A stretch of DNA of 49,221 nt from Oscillospiraceae bacterium. GTDB taxonomy: Bacteria; Bacillota; Clostridia; Oscillospirales; Oscillospiraceae. Location of the stretch: contig JAFTFT010000012.1 in NCBI GenBank assembly GCA_017458335.1, forward strand, positions 1 through 49,221, in the 5' to 3' direction. The notes under the pieces were generated by a model. The model was not told where the DNA came from and did no database searches. It saw nothing but the letters and a program-made list of their open reading frames with translations. Shown one piece after another: positions 30,212-34,864 of this stretch; the first letter of the stretch is position 1, and each line of letters opens with the position of its first letter. The translations under genes were made by a program, and so were the position numbers.

Positions 30212-31018
30212 GATCACATTTTCGAGACTGCGGAACGGGTGATCGGGGCGTAATGGTTCATCCTCAAAAACGTCCAGGCAGGCGCCTCCGATCAGGCCCT
30301 TCTCCAATGCATGAAGGAGCTGCGGCTCATCAATGACGCCGCCTCTTGAGGTGTTGATCAGGACAGCGTCGGATTTCATTTTGGTAAGCATATCAGCATT
30401 TATCATGTGCCGTGTACTTTCATTGAGAGGAACATGCAGGCTGACAATATCACTGTCACGAACCAGACTGTCCAGGTCTCTCTGCTCAATTCCCGCGGCT
30501 TCAATTGGCTTGCGGCTGTATGCCAGCACGTTCATATGAAAAGCATTACAGTATTCTGCCACTTTTTTGCCGACATGCCCAAATCCGACAAGGCCGATTG
30601 TTTTTTCCGCAAGTTCGGCTCCGCAATAGCTTAACCCGCCTTCATCGGAATCCATCTTTAAAAACCGGTCAAGTTTTACAATGTTCTTGTACCAGCAAAG
30701 AATAAACGCCATGACATGTTCGGCTACGGCATTGGCATTTACACCAGCCGCGTTGCATACCTGAACACCATGCATGGTACAGGCGCACAAATCAACGTTG
30801 TCATATCCCGCGCCTGTCTGTACCAGCTTCAGCTTCGGCGCTTTTTGAAGGAGGTCATCGTCAATCCGGATGTGCTCAGGAATCAATACGTCTGCATCTG
30901 TTAATTCCTGTTCTACTTTATCCGGCGAAACGATCCTGATATCCCAGGCGCAAGGAAAACTTCCAAGGATTCTGTCTTTTGCTGCCTCCGGGAAAAAGCC
31001 TGTGATGACGACCTTCAT
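30077..31018 (-). CDS. D-2-hydroxyacid dehydrogenase (phosphoglycerate dehydrogenase-like)
   Basis: A 313-residue NAD-dependent oxidoreductase. The nucleotide-binding motif GLVGFGHVGKKVAEY is at 142-156, and the catalytic residues are R225 (NTSRGG), E254 (FEDEP) and H273 (TPHTAG). It lacks the ACT domain of full-length SerA, so it is more likely a glyoxylate/hydroxypyruvate, 4-phosphoerythronate or other 2-ketoacid reductase. Start at 31018 has AGGAGG ten bases upstream. Base composition is visibly lower in GC than neighbours, it stands alone on this strand, and its 3' end abuts a truncated gene, all hinting at acquisition. The substrate is unknown. Confidence 0.88.
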   Translation of the reverse strand: MKVVITGFFPEAAKDRILGSFPCAWDIRIVSPDKVEQELTDADVLIPEHIRIDDDLLQKAPKLKLVQTGAGYDNVDLCACTMHGVQVCNAAGVNANAVAEHVMAFILCWYKNIVKLDRFLKMDSDEGGLSYCGAELAEKTIGLVGFGHVGKKVAEYCNAFHMNVLAYSRKPIEAAGIEQRDLDSLVRDSDIVSLHVPLNESTRHMINADMLTKMKSDAVLINTSRGGVIDEPQLLHALEKGLIGGACLDVFEDEPLRPDHPFRSLENVILTPHTAGLPDGVKYHRKRYEFFVRNIERVMNNEIPDCRLNHLMR

Positions 31019-31155
31019 GGAACACATGCCTCCTCGTTGAATATTAGCTTTGCAGAAAGATCTCGCCGCTTTATCAAGCATCGTAAATGCAGTATAAACA
31101 AAATAACATATTACGTCAATGGGTTATAAGAGGAATGTGATCACTGTTTTTCCTC

Positions 31156-31202
31156 TTGACATATCATGCTGAACGTGATATAAACATACTTACCCGATAG
31201 GG
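31156..31202 (+). promoter_or_regulatory. Promoter of the Cys-leader/cystine symporter operon, with operator-like dyads
   Basis: Plus-strand TTGACA (31156-31161), 17-base spacer, TATAAA (31179-31184). The spacer is a dyad, ATATCA...TGATAT (31161-31181), and a second dyad CCC-GATA-GGG (31193-31202) lies at the expected transcript start. Both could bind a repressor of sulfur genes; no regulator gene is adjacent. Confidence 0.75.
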
Positions 31203-31227
31203 AAATGAGAAATTTGAGGAGACATCC

Positions 31228-31308
31228 ATGAAACGCACCGGATCCAAATCCATCCTGTGTTGTGCCACACGCTGTGAAATGCGTGTGCGATTTGGCATGC
31301 CCAGGTGA
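31228..31308 (+). CDS. Leader peptide 1 with three Cys codons (putative cysteine attenuator)
   Basis: A 26-codon frame with GAGGAG eight bases before its ATG. Codons 11, 12 and 16 are all TGT (SILCCATRC), and the C-terminus is basic (MRVRFGMPR). The Cys codons lie at and inside a hairpin (CACACGC 31266-31272 with GCGTGTG 31281-31287). The stop at 31306-31308 is immediately followed by the antiterminator arm and then a strong terminator, with a cystine-type transporter downstream. This is the layout of amino-acid attenuators such as trp or his: ribosomes stalling at Cys codons when charged tRNA-Cys is scarce would allow read-through. The model is inferred; the frame, site and hairpins are seen. 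Confidence 0.7.
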   Translation: MKRTGSKSILCCATRCEMRVRFGMPR

Positions 31309-31310
31309 TG

Positions 31311-31335
31311 TTTCCTTCTGCTGTTCAGACGGGGA
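31311..31335 (+). promoter_or_regulatory. Candidate antiterminator hairpin
   Basis: TTTCCTTCTG (31311-31320) can pair with CAGACGGGGA (31326-31335) around a five-base loop, with one T/C mismatch and two G-U pairs. The right arm takes bases 31329-31335 of the terminator left arm, so the two hairpins exclude each other. A ribosome finishing leader 1 would cover 31311-31320 and block this hairpin. Confidence 0.5.
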
Positions 31336-31359
31336 GCTCGATGGGCTCCCCGTTTTTTT
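31329..31359 (+). terminator. Strong terminator between leader 1 and the symporter gene
   Basis: Nine-base stem ACGGGGAGC / GCTCCCCGT, seven-base loop, then seven T. It sits inside the 5' leader of the operon, about 140 bases before the symporter start, so it acts as an attenuator rather than a gene end. Confidence 0.9.
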
Positions 31360-31391
31360 ATGAGACGATCCTGCACATGGAGGTTTAAGCA

Positions 31392-31469
31392 ATGATATTT
31401 CTGATTCGACGCTGGAAAACGGACCGATGTCGTCCGGTTCTCCTTTTTTCCGCACAGACTTCATTCTGA
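31392..31469 (+). CDS. Leader peptide 2 with one Cys codon
   Basis: A 25-codon frame with a strong GGAGG nine bases before its ATG. Its single Cys codon (codon 13, TGT at 31428-31430, in TDRCRP) lies in the loop of a terminator-like hairpin that is part of this same frame. Ribosomes held at that codon would melt the stem. It may be a second attenuation step in series with leader 1. It is shorter and less certain than leader 1. Confidence 0.45.
   Translation: MIFLIRRWKTDRCRPVLLFSAQTSF
31420..31449 (+). terminator. Second terminator-like hairpin in the symporter leader
   Basis: CGGAC (31420-31424) pairs with GTCCG (31432-31436), extendable with AA/TT beyond one bulge, followed by TTCTCC and six T (31444-31449). 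The stem is short, so activity may be modest. It is contained within leader frame 2. Confidence 0.5.
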
Positions 31470-31502
31470 CTACAGGTCAATCAAAAGAAAGAAGAATTTG
31501 TC

Positions 31503-32891
31503 ATGCAAATACTGCTGTCCGTACGCTGGATGCCGTTTCTGGCCCTGGACGTCGTCCTGCTCGCGTTTGTTCTGCTTCGGGTTCTGGAAGACCGGATCAA
31601 TTGGTCCCTTGTCATTCTCCTAGCCCTGGTGCTGGGGGCAGGAATCGGAGTCCTGTTTGCCTCGGAAGGAAACGCATGGCTTCTATGGGTCGATTTCCTC
31701 GGAGATCTTTACATCAGGCTCCTGAAGCTTCTGGTATCTCCGGTTATTTTCCTCTCCATCGTGTCAGGCATCATCAGTCTGAGAGGGCGTGCCAATGCCG
31801 GAAGTCTCGGACTTCGGTCGGTTTTCTGGCTGCTGCTTCAGGCCGCGCTTGCAATTCTGCTGAGTCTGCTGGCCGGTCAGTTCCTGAACATCGGCAGCGA
31901 CGCGACAGCCCTCTTCCGTGAGCTTGATACGCTGGATGAGAGTACCGTCAGTGCCTATGCCGGATTGACGCAGCCTTTTCACCAGGTACTGGAAAATCTC
32001 TTTCCCGAGAACGTCGTCGGAGATTTTGCAAACAACAATGTCCCGGCCCTGATTATAACCGGCGTGGCGGTTGCGGCGGCTTATCTCGCGGTCGCGGAGA
32101 AGGAAGGCGAGGAGGCCGTTCGGCCTTTCTCCCTGCTGATTGACGCGGCACGAAAAATCGTCTTCAAAATCCTTGAAGTCGTCATTGATCTCACCCCCTA
32201 TGCAGTGCTGTGCCTCATCGCCGGGGCCGCCAGCAGACTTCTGGAGAGCAGAGAGTCCATGCTTCAGCTTCTGCTGCTGACGGTGGTGATCTATGCCGTC
32301 TGCCTGGTGCATACATATGTTCTGGGCGGGCTTATCATTTGGGGTGCGGCAAAGCTTTCCCCGCTGCGCTTCTTCCGCAAGATCTTCCCGGCGCAGGTGA
32401 CCGCTTTCAGCACCCAGTCCAGTGTGGGGACGCTCCCGGTTACGGTGCGCTGCCTGAAGGACGAGGTGGGTGTTTCCGAAGAAGTGGCGGATTTCACCGC
32501 TTCTCTCGGTACCACCATCGGAATGCCGGGCTGCACTTGCGTGTGGCCGGTTCTGCTGGCCCTGTTCTATGTCCATGCAGCCGGGCTTCCCTGGAGCGCC
32601 GTGGATTATCTTACCCTGGCGGTTACGGCGTTCTTCCTTTCCATCGGCAGCGCGGGGGTTCCCGGGATTGCGGTGGTCTCGGCAATTGCGCTCTTCAGCG
32701 CCATCGGGCTTCCGGTAGGGGCGGTGGTTCTGATGATTCCCATCAACACCATCTCGGATATGATCCGCACGCTGGATAACGTCTCGAGCGCCTCCATCGC
32801 CGCTACGGCTGTGGCGAGAAAGACCGAACTGCTGGACGACAGGGTTTTTGCCGCCGAAACTGGCAGAACAGGAAAGGAGCGGATCGCATGA
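31503..32891 (+). CDS. Dicarboxylate/amino acid:cation symporter, probable L-cystine transporter (TcyP-like)
   Basis: A 462-residue SLC1/DAACS-family membrane transporter with about eight helices and two re-entrant loops. Characteristic stretches are YIRLLKLLVSPVIFLSIVSGI (TM3 region), TAFSTQSSVGTLPVTVRCLKDEVGVSEEVADFTASLGTTIGMPG (HP1 serine-rich loop to TM7) and GVPGIAVVSAIALFSAIGLPVG (HP2/TM8 region). The length matches TcyP-type cystine carriers (about 463) rather than glutamate carriers (about 420). The Cys-codon leader upstream supports cystine or another cysteine source as substrate; this is inference. The ribosome site is weak (AGAAAGAAGAA). The stop overlaps the next start. Confidence 0.85.
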   Translation: MQILLSVRWMPFLALDVVLLAFVLLRVLEDRINWSLVILLALVLGAGIGVLFASEGNAWLLWVDFLGDLYIRLLKLLVSPVIFLSIVSGIISLRGRANAGSLGLRSVFWLLLQAALAILLSLLAGQFLNIGSDATALFRELDTLDESTVSAYAGLTQPFHQVLENLFPENVVGDFANNNVPALIITGVAVAAAYLAVAEKEGEEAVRPFSLLIDAARKIVFKILEVVIDLTPYAVLCLIAGAASRLLESRESMLQLLLLTVVIYAVCLVHTYVLGGLIIWGAAKLSPLRFFRKIFPAQVTAFSTQSSVGTLPVTVRCLKDEVGVSEEVADFTASLGTTIGMPGCTCVWPVLLALFYVHAAGLPWSAVDYLTLAVTAFFLSIGSAGVPGIAVVSAIALFSAIGLPVGAVVLMIPINTISDMIRTLDNVSSASIAATAVARKTELLDDRVFAAETGRTGKERIA

Positions 32892-33445: not shown

Positions 33446-34864
33446 ATGAAACGTTTATTGTCTGTTCTCACTATTCTTGTGCTTCTGCTCTCGCTGGCAC
33501 TGCCCGCCTGGGCCGATACGGCGCTGACATCCTCCGCAGAAACCCAGAATCTCCAGAAGGCCTATTACAACAGCGATTATGCCTATCTCGAGGATCCGGA
33601 TTCCGTTTTCAGCTCTCTGACGCTGGAAGAAGCGATTTACCTCTTCCGGCAGGAGGGAAACTACCTTCTGCTTCTGGGCGGCAGCTGGTGCGGCAACACC
33701 ACGCCGGTCATCGGCTACATCGACCAGGTTGCAAAGGAATACGGCATTGATACCATCTATAATCTGGACTTCCGTCTCGACGGGACAAACCGCGCCTCCC
33801 ACATTCGCGAGACCAACGGCGCAAGCTCCGGGGATGCCGTGCTTCCCGGCAGTCTCTACAATTATCTGTATGGTGAGCTGGTGACAAATTATCTTGTAAA
33901 CCTCAACGACTTTGTGGAGTATCAGGTGGATACCGAGTCCGCACTCACCTATACCGACGCTGACGGCAAAGAGGTCACAGTCCCCAAGGTTCAGGTCCCC
34001 TTCCTCTTCCTGTACAACCGGGACAATACCGATGCCGACGGCAATCCCGCTCCCATTGTGGCGGGCCTTGAACTCATGAAGGTGCGGGACGACTTTGTCA
34101 CGGACAATGTTGAAAACACGGAGGCCGTTGACGAATACAAGGCCATTCTCCGGGAGAGCGTATTTGACGCAGCTTCCGAAACGGAGCTCGACAGCTTCAG
34201 CGGTGCGGATTACATCCGGCTGGCTTATAATGAGAAAGCGGAACAGGAGATCTTCACCCCGGACGAGCAGATTAACATCCAGCCCATCACCTATAAGCAG
34301 CTGACGTGGCTGCTGGAGCAGGACGGCTCCTATCTGATCCTCCTGGGCGGAAGCTGGTGCGGCAATACCCGGGCGGTAATCAAGCTCATCAACGACTATG
34401 CCGTCAGAAATCATGTCACCGTCTATAACTTTGATACCAAGCTGGACGGCGGCTACGCCCGCAAGTTCTGGGGATATGAGAAGGATCTGCACATCCGGGA
34501 CAACAGCAGTGAATTTGTCGGCCTCTATGTGGATCTGGTCTCCGAGTACTTCCCCAACATCGAAACCGAATATGCCATTGACAGTGAGAACAATATCTTC
34601 ACCGTGAACGCTGAAGGAGAGACCGTCACGGTCAACAAGCTGCAGGTGCCCTATTTCCTGGCATACACCAGGGGCCTGGAAGATGACATCGGTCATTTTG
34701 TCCCCATTACTGCTTATCACGAGCAGATGCTCACGCTGGACGCGGACGCGGAGGATTACGTCTACAGCGAGGAAAACTATGCCGCCTATACAGCCGGAAT
34801 CTATGCCGTGATTCAGTCTTACGCCGATCAGCTTGGCATCGAGGCGTTTGATCTCACCGATTGA
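33446..34864 (+). CDS. Secreted tandem thioredoxin-like protein, one Cys per domain (WCGNT)
   Basis: A 472-residue protein with a signal peptide cleaved after about residue 23 (AWA). Two homologous domains follow. Domain 1 has LLLLGGSWCGNTTPVIGYI at 74-92 and a cis-Pro-like loop VQVPFLFLY at 183-190. Domain 2 has LILLGGSWCGNTRAVIKLI at 297-315 and LQVPYFLAY at 399-407. Both fit the thioredoxin fold, but the usual CxxC is CGNT, keeping only the first Cys (C82 and C305). These are the only two Cys residues in the mature protein. Such sites can form mixed disulfides but cannot do full dithiol exchange alone. AAAGGAG precedes the ATG. Last gene of the Cys-leader operon, ending at a strong terminator. 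Confidence 0.85.
   Translation: MKRLLSVLTILVLLLSLALPAWADTALTSSAETQNLQKAYYNSDYAYLEDPDSVFSSLTLEEAIYLFRQEGNYLLLLGGSWCGNTTPVIGYIDQVAKEYGIDTIYNLDFRLDGTNRASHIRETNGASSGDAVLPGSLYNYLYGELVTNYLVNLNDFVEYQVDTESALTYTDADGKEVTVPKVQVPFLFLYNRDNTDADGNPAPIVAGLELMKVRDDFVTDNVENTEAVDEYKAILRESVFDAASETELDSFSGADYIRLAYNEKAEQEIFTPDEQINIQPITYKQLTWLLEQDGSYLILLGGSWCGNTRAVIKLINDYAVRNHVTVYNFDTKLDGGYARKFWGYEKDLHIRDNSSEFVGLYVDLVSEYFPNIETEYAIDSENNIFTVNAEGETVTVNKLQVPYFLAYTRGLEDDIGHFVPITAYHEQMLTLDADAEDYVYSEENYAAYTAGIYAVIQSYADQLGIEAFDLTD

Follow-up and report, generated by a model that had tools for sequence, protein, structure and literature searches.

The closest described counterpart of the locus studied here is, according to the accessible part of its source, the uORFC-8-2 motif found before cysS in Rhodobacterales, in which a short frame with Cys codons is followed by a terminator and attenuation by Cys-tRNA has been proposed (PMC8632094). 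In mycobacteria and other actinobacteria, runs of Cys codons lie upstream of sulfur genes, with no conserved terminator in the portion of that report at hand (PMC1262725), while the available text of another paper assigns actinobacterial Cys leaders to translation attenuation and cites Canestrari 2020, cysteine-responsive by its title (PMC13236596); an earlier note on this DNA likewise states that Cys-rich leader frames have been reported in actinobacteria. For Bacillota, the accessible parts of two reports describe a His leader before hisS/hisZ (PMC2965389) and a Leu leader before ilvD in Staphylococcus aureus (PMC5794164). Leader peptides are rarely described in the clostridial group, and the known Cys attenuators come from elsewhere. 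The literature searched, in which subscription journals were mostly uncovered and which is weak evidence of absence, yielded no Cys leader in Clostridia; the earlier note had called a Cys attenuator in this group not well described.

The window, i.e. the whole stretch of 49,221 nucleotides from an Oscillospiraceae bacterium, carries a symporter operon preceded by a region that we read, with a probability of roughly 0.75, as a ribosome-mediated transcription attenuator responding to Cys shortage. Its features are the following:

31156..31184, + strand: sigma-70-type promoter, TTGACA-17-TATAAA, read from the sequence
31216..31221, + strand: leader Shine-Dalgarno site GAGGAG, from the sequence and the minimum-energy fold
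31228..31308, + strand: leader frame of 26 codons and a TGA stop, with TGT as the Cys codon at positions 11, 12 and 16, from the sequence
31299..31321, + strand: region 2, the candidate antiterminator arm, spanning the leader stop and the bases behind it, from pairing energy and the cognate test
31329..31353, + strand: intrinsic terminator hairpin, followed by a T run
31503..32891, + strand: SDF-family (PF00375) symporter, 462 aa
32888..33397, + strand: small protein, 169 aa, with an N-terminus hydrophobic by eye
33446..34864, + strand: 472-aa protein with an N-terminus signal-like by eye and two SWCGNT repeats

The -35 box TTGACA (31156-31161) and the -10 box TATAAA (31179-31184) are separated by a 17-nt spacer, and the consensus promoter scan does not list this promoter because it demands T at the last base. 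The leader frame starts with ATG at 31228, stops with TGA at 31306-31308 and is presumably translated into the peptide MKRTGSKSILCCATRCEMRVRFGMPR. The promoter, the ribosome site and the frame with its three Cys codons are all where the earlier note had placed them. Of the terminator it had claimed at 31329-31359, the hairpin and the T run are present, but the hairpin itself spans 31329-31353, and its alternative hairpin at 31311-31335 is contained in the pairing of 31299-31321 with 31326-31345 (-19.4 kcal/mol), the best partner of the terminator left arm. The earlier observation is confirmed as real, with coordinates right to within a few bases.

With ample Cys-tRNA, the ribosome would reach the leader stop and cover region 2, the terminator would form, and transcription would stop upstream of the symporter. 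With scarce Cys-tRNA, the ribosome would stall on the clustered Cys codons and leave region 2 free to capture the terminator left arm, allowing RNA polymerase to read into the symporter operon. In the absence of a ribosome, the leader Shine-Dalgarno region may hold region 2 of the window and favour termination. Promoter, leader frame, terminator and the conserved competing pairing come from sequence and comparison; from these we infer ribosome stalling, a response to cysteine and the uptake of a cysteine-derived substrate.

As far as the accessible part of its description goes, the uORFC-8-2 motif shares with the window the short Cys-codon frame, the terminator and the proposed ribosome-mediated attenuation, but it belongs to Alphaproteobacteria and usually has its tandem Cys at codons 14-15, whereas the leaders described here are from Clostridia and have Met-Cys pairs in 20 of 21 cases (PMC8632094). 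A position before cysS is not found here either, the genes concerned being the SDF symporter operon, metY, SBP_bac_3 proteins and an azlC-like fragment. The actinobacterial leaders, judged from the same partial sources, resemble this one in having runs of Cys codons in a short frame before sulfur genes, but act by translation attenuation and have no conserved terminator, in contrast to the intrinsic terminator with a competing arm in the window (PMC1262725, PMC13236596). The His and Leu leaders of Bacillota are, as far as can be taken from the available text, also cases of classical leader-peptide attenuation, with a different amino acid, different genes and different sequences (PMC2965389, PMC5794164). 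The Met-Cys codon arrangement of the relatives may be a new variant.

Another comparison is offered by the genome itself, which has seven T-box (RF00230) matches at E <=0.001, two of them over the cut-off score, followed by genes that by eye include valS, trpD, a trpB-like gene, thrS and pheS. Bacillota mostly sense tRNA charging through T-boxes. There as here, tRNA charging would control a terminator, but in the leader it would be sensed through a translated frame. No T-box was matched at the gathering score in the window or in 14 relatives, and no Rfam family was matched in this set.

Taken alone, the window gives an uneven picture. In positions 30900-31700, six terminator-like sites, several of them overlapping, stand against a shuffle mean of 0.8, and the fold has a z of -4.4. 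On the other hand, its three Cys codons are ordinary (shuffle mean 2.2, p 0.39), frame +1 of the leader contains four TGY, and the antiterminator pairing is borderline (shuffle p 0.06). In the window alone, the terminator is beyond chance while the Cys codons and the antiterminator could be chance, and significance comes from the relatives. Of what would mark an attenuator, the window has the Shine-Dalgarno-led frame after a promoter and the terminator before the first structural gene; clustered, conserved Cys codons and a mutually exclusive antiterminator are properties found in its family. The minimum-energy fold without a ribosome contains the terminator together with a helix of 31216-31226 with 31307-31318, absent from the earlier note, in which the Shine-Dalgarno region occupies the same stretch, 31307-31318, that the antiterminator needs. 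Another short frame, led by a good Shine-Dalgarno site, lies between the terminator and the symporter (31392-31469, MIFLIRRWKTDRCRPVLLFSAQTSF); the short frame of L018 has TDRCR in common with it, and L011 and L012 have Cys-containing ones.

Relatives were collected in one scan of genome contigs, which gave 38 loci with symporter relatives, and L084 was added from whole-genome searches. The counted set consists of the window and the loci whose symporter is at least 50% identical, in total 21 operons. Left uncounted were extra copies of counted loci (L001, L046, L047, L049, L050, L053, L066-L073, L081-L083, L115, L117, L118, and L116, which equals L005a), relatives below 50% identity (L003, L022, L024-L041), L052 (a weak match of covariance model R1 on another contig of the L018 genome) and a decayed second leader of L006 (also L048). 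The leader filter required a short Shine-Dalgarno-led frame with at least two Cys codons, then a terminator. The earlier note had named relatives that conserve the terminator and lose the Cys codons as the pattern that would speak against it; we found both kept in 13 of the 21 operons (window, L004-L009, L011, L012, L017, L018, L023, L084), with two to seven Cys codons per leader, two being the minimum set by the filter. In L018, the leader precedes a small-protein gene and the symporter comes after. A different leader is present in six operons (L010, L013, L015, L016, L020, L021), and two (L014, L019) have no visible leader before the symporter.

The comparison with other genes of the same 21 loci supports the Cys-stalling reading put forward earlier. 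A fixed rule (Shine-Dalgarno-like site, 18-40 codons, at least two Cys codons, terminator within 75 nt of the stop) is satisfied before 12 of 20 symporters and before one of 122 other genes, and with at least three Cys codons before 9/20 and 1/122, respectively. L018 was left out of the 20 because its leader precedes the small gene, and the known leader-bearing genes of L005 and L018 were set aside from the control. The single control match, in L019 before the gene at 705, consists of a Met/Cys-rich frame (MTRNYNLNSNMMMFCMQMCCMLFCRDNIVSHNK) and a terminator, followed by a gene for a 1051-aa protein, parts of which resemble the thioredoxin-like protein of the operon; it may be a true family member and was left out of the counts. 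Loci of the relatives also served as background for the Cys-codon counts.

The composition of the leaders raises the question of which codons would be sensed. Over 13 leaders, frames 0, +1 and +2 contain 53, 52 and 16 TGY triplets, respectively, and by themselves these counts give no support for the Cys codons; by arithmetic, 24 of the 52 in frame +1 accompany an in-frame ATGTGY. This Met-Cys pair is always in the leader frame, 24/24 in 12 leaders and 22/22 in eight leaders found later, in total 46/46, the frame of the later ones being partly inherited because the model or pattern that found them contains the ATGTGY motif. The leader in the window is the exception without such a pair. In all 21 leaders together, Met accounts for 82 and Cys for 87 of 544 residues, so that Met codons, omitted from the earlier note, are as frequent as Cys codons in the family. 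In 12 leaders, the enrichment of Met over shuffles (43 vs a mean of 12.5, maximum 23) is larger than that of Cys (51 vs 32).

The attenuator perhaps answers Met shortage as well. A dual sulfur amino acid attenuator, stalling at Met or Cys codons and sensing either shortage, would account for the abundance of Met, for the invariable frame of ATGTGY and for one leader standing before metY, and we regard it as a tenable, if tentative, alternative. The leader in the window is its outlier, with only two inner Met codons and with Cys-Cys as its only neighbouring pair of sensor codons, and base pairing of the AUGUGU stretch in the RNA could also be the reason why the Met codons of the relatives persist.

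A leader of this kind requires a competing arm as well. For the terminator left arm together with its loop, the strongest pairing partner was determined within the interval from the first Cys codon to the terminator; as such a partner always turns up, shuffles and arm swaps served as the tests. In the first 12 leaders, pairing energies range from -12.1 to -23.3 kcal/mol and single shuffle p values from 0.002 to 0.48, above 0.05 in eight of them; jointly, the terminator left arm beats the shuffles with a Fisher p of 2.6e-5 for these 12 leaders, which are related loci and not independent. L084, found afterwards, has p 0.024, and the eight later leaders beat shuffles jointly (Fisher p 1.7e-4), with single p above 0.05 in 6/8. 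In 12 of 13 leaders, the end of the partner is no more than 15 nt away from the leader stop codon; in L018, it lies 35 nt before that codon. Cognate arms pair better than swapped ones (sum -236.5 vs a permuted mean of -188.6, sd 10.7, p 5e-5, 13 leaders), which also holds with one leader per group (8 groups, 18 choices, median p 0.0003, maximum 0.0029), despite L005, whose own-arm pairing is slightly worse than expected. As arm sequences differ between groups, the cognate preference amounts to covariation. A fixed spacing of 16-20 nt from the last Cys codon to region 2, seen in 8/13, was discarded, since this band had been picked after the data were seen and was not repeated in the eight later leaders.

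The earlier note had asked for folds of both states. In folds that treat the ribosome as a block and stop the transcript short of the terminator right arm, upstream pairing of the left arm is higher for a ribosome placed at a Cys codon than for one placed at the stop in 12/12 leaders, a result that is partly trivial because the latter position conceals more of the RNA. For the window, left-arm pairing is 0.86 in the stalled state, drops no lower than 0.59 with the ribosome at the stop and is 0.56 with no ribosome. When the full-length transcript is folded, the terminator is preferred in all states, at 0.96-0.98 even if the ribosome is stalled. The completed terminator thus prevails at equilibrium, and control in the window must be kinetic.

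The peculiarities of the window leader, without Met-Cys pairs and with an ordinary Cys count, could also mean that it is a decayed or constitutive remnant of a real family, all the more as relatives show decay (the second leader of L006 has lost its ATG and several Cys codons) or absence (L014, L019). We hold this to be unlikely, as the start, the Shine-Dalgarno site, the three Cys codons, the terminator and the competing arm are all intact, and the cognate pairing of the window is 4.3 kcal/mol better than the row/column-mean expectation. That decayed second leader (L006:3833-3985) lies after the first terminator and resembles the pre-symporter leader of L005, where metY sits between two leaders.

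Two further explanations do without tRNA sensing at the leader codons. In the first, a riboswitch or protein site in the RNA is conserved and the short frame is incidental, as AUGUGU-rich RNA and hairpins kept within subgroups and the equal frequency of TGY in frames 0 and +1 would allow, but ATGTGY keeps to the leader frame throughout, a Shine-Dalgarno site and a start are present in the leaders, most of which are unalignable across groups, and aligned Cys codons change at the third base in one group, leaving this explanation very improbable. In that group (L005, L008, L009), 14 aligned Cys-Cys pairs include five differing only at the third base, against six changes from Cys to another residue; in L004, L006 and L007, three Cys-Cys pairs vs 10 Cys-other pairs indicate that positions are not kept, and L011 and L012 have three vs two. 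In the second, equally improbable one, a Met/Cys-rich nascent peptide binds metal or senses redox and arrests the ribosome, which runs like LCMCMCMCMC in L018 and the thioredoxin-like protein of the operon would suit, but residues outside Met and Cys are unconserved between groups, Cys spacing varies, and the identified downstream genes are for amino-acid uptake and metY, not metal genes. NCBIfam leader models, presumably the Ms-type Cys-rich leader peptides, gave no match at E 10 for six very short queries, five of them Cys leaders and the sixth a leader of the other type.

In the operon behind the putative Cys attenuator, the symporter passes no NCBIfam model cut-off and is distant from Escherichia coli TcyP, with long branches. 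Its TM7 motif TIGxxGCxG is common to TcyP and absent in GltP, DctA and SstT, making a cystine-like substrate possible; solved relatives include aspartate, glutamate and neutral amino acid transporters. The small protein belongs to no Pfam or NCBIfam family and has homologues in 17 of 19 relatives (L004-L021, L023, symporter at least 50% identical). The 472-aa protein has no Pfam family at the cut-off and no solved structure matched by sequence; at E 0.1, 19 of its homologues give weak Pfam matches to Thioredoxin (seven), Thioredoxin_9 (three) and Kelch_6 (five). Its structure model is confident (mean pLDDT 90.6), and it is probably thioredoxin-like. Homologues occur in 16 of the 19 relatives, the three others (L008, L018, L023) being short or differently ordered contigs, and in 13 of 14 actinobacterial loci, the SWCGNT-repeat protein accompanying the symporter from Clostridia to Nocardioides and Solirubrobacter. 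In none of the 14 actinobacterial relatives was a Shine-Dalgarno-led frame with at least two Cys codons found within 400 nt upstream, and one match in L038, a distant Bacillota relative, was not accepted as a leader.

In the symporter tree, built without L014, L018 and L020, the five rows carrying the other leader cluster as one clade (100/97); its sister group, weakly supported (80/76), contains the Cys-leader rows together with L019. The operon is sparsely distributed. In the family of the window, 2/200 genomes match the symporter at 1e-60, namely its own and one at 39% identity; 8/308 genomes in the family of L009 match at 1e-90, with 2/396 in its order, and two other families have 2/3 and 1/74. 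A search of plasmids with the symporter gave no match at 1e-40.

The other leader type has RSNFRFGRC or a near variant at its end, located roughly 23-73 nt upstream of the symporter, with Cys as the last codon except in L013, which has seven further codons. Of its 16 codons, nine vary only synonymously and four with amino-acid change, third bases vary in 11/16, and by eye no terminator was noticed. At the promoters, a palindrome CCTAYT-N5-AGTAGG (up to two mismatches) lies at the -35 box in L007, L011, L012, L017 and L019 and after the -10 box in L084, and a GTCTAT...ATAGAC variant occurs in L004, L005 (upstream leader) and L119-L121. We take these palindromes to recall Rrf2-type operators; Rrf2-type genes are near in L005 and L130.

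Leaders of the Cys type are also found before other genes. A pattern search of both strands in 13 genomes and 30 loci returned the known leaders and a new one in L005, with its own terminator, before metY, whose product passes the O-acetylhomoserine sulfhydrylase model TIGR01326 (608 bits vs a cut-off of 495); the remaining matches were rejected because the frames lack a terminator or lie within a rubredoxin-like gene. Three of the weak R1 matches beyond the known leaders were inspected (L051, L054, L056) and are unlike leaders, L051 by eye lying inside an AraC-type gene. A second covariance model (A6, R2), run over the 308 genomes of the L009 family, matched 11 genomes, seven of which lack a symporter match at 1e-90; all seven have a Cys-codon leader and a terminator-like hairpin, in some cases with a weak T run by a lenient rule. 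The targets of the eight later leaders are metY in L005, SBP_bac_3 proteins, which point to amino-acid ABC importers, in six cases (L119, L120, L121, L123, L124, L125) and an azlC-like fragment in one. Four of the six SBP_bac_3 proteins are followed by permease- and ATPase-like genes; NCBIfam names were obtained only for L126, where nothing except a permease domain model exceeded its specific cut-off. In L122/L130, the target is only putative because the first recognised gene, which matches only the C-terminal half of AzlC, is about 600 nt away; AzlD-like (by eye) and Rrf2-type genes follow. Among the neighbours of 13 symporter loci, ten were picked by eye, with no control, as sulfur-related, among them PLP enzymes of Cys/Met metabolism in L005, L010 and L012, NifS- and NifU-like genes in L007, ThiF, JAB and thioredoxin-reductase-like genes in L013 and an Rrf2 gene in L005.

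These leaders could form a family of Met-Cys attenuators across rumen and gut Clostridia and relatives, sensing both sulfur amino acids at once and associated with an Rrf2-type operator at the promoter, with the leader in the window as a divergent member, an extension that we advance with reserve and put below even odds. Just as tentatively, such a family would be sited before several unrelated uptake systems and metY, with the fixed Met-Cys codon pairs as the sensor.

The attenuator reading would mean that an uptake operon is placed under a translated leader in a genome that also has T-boxes. Should it hold, it would define a regulon of cysteine (or of sulfur amino acids) open to testing in uncultured Clostridia, suggest cysteine-linked substrates for the operon of an uncharacterised symporter and a thioredoxin-like protein, and make such leaders findable by their Met-Cys codon pairs.
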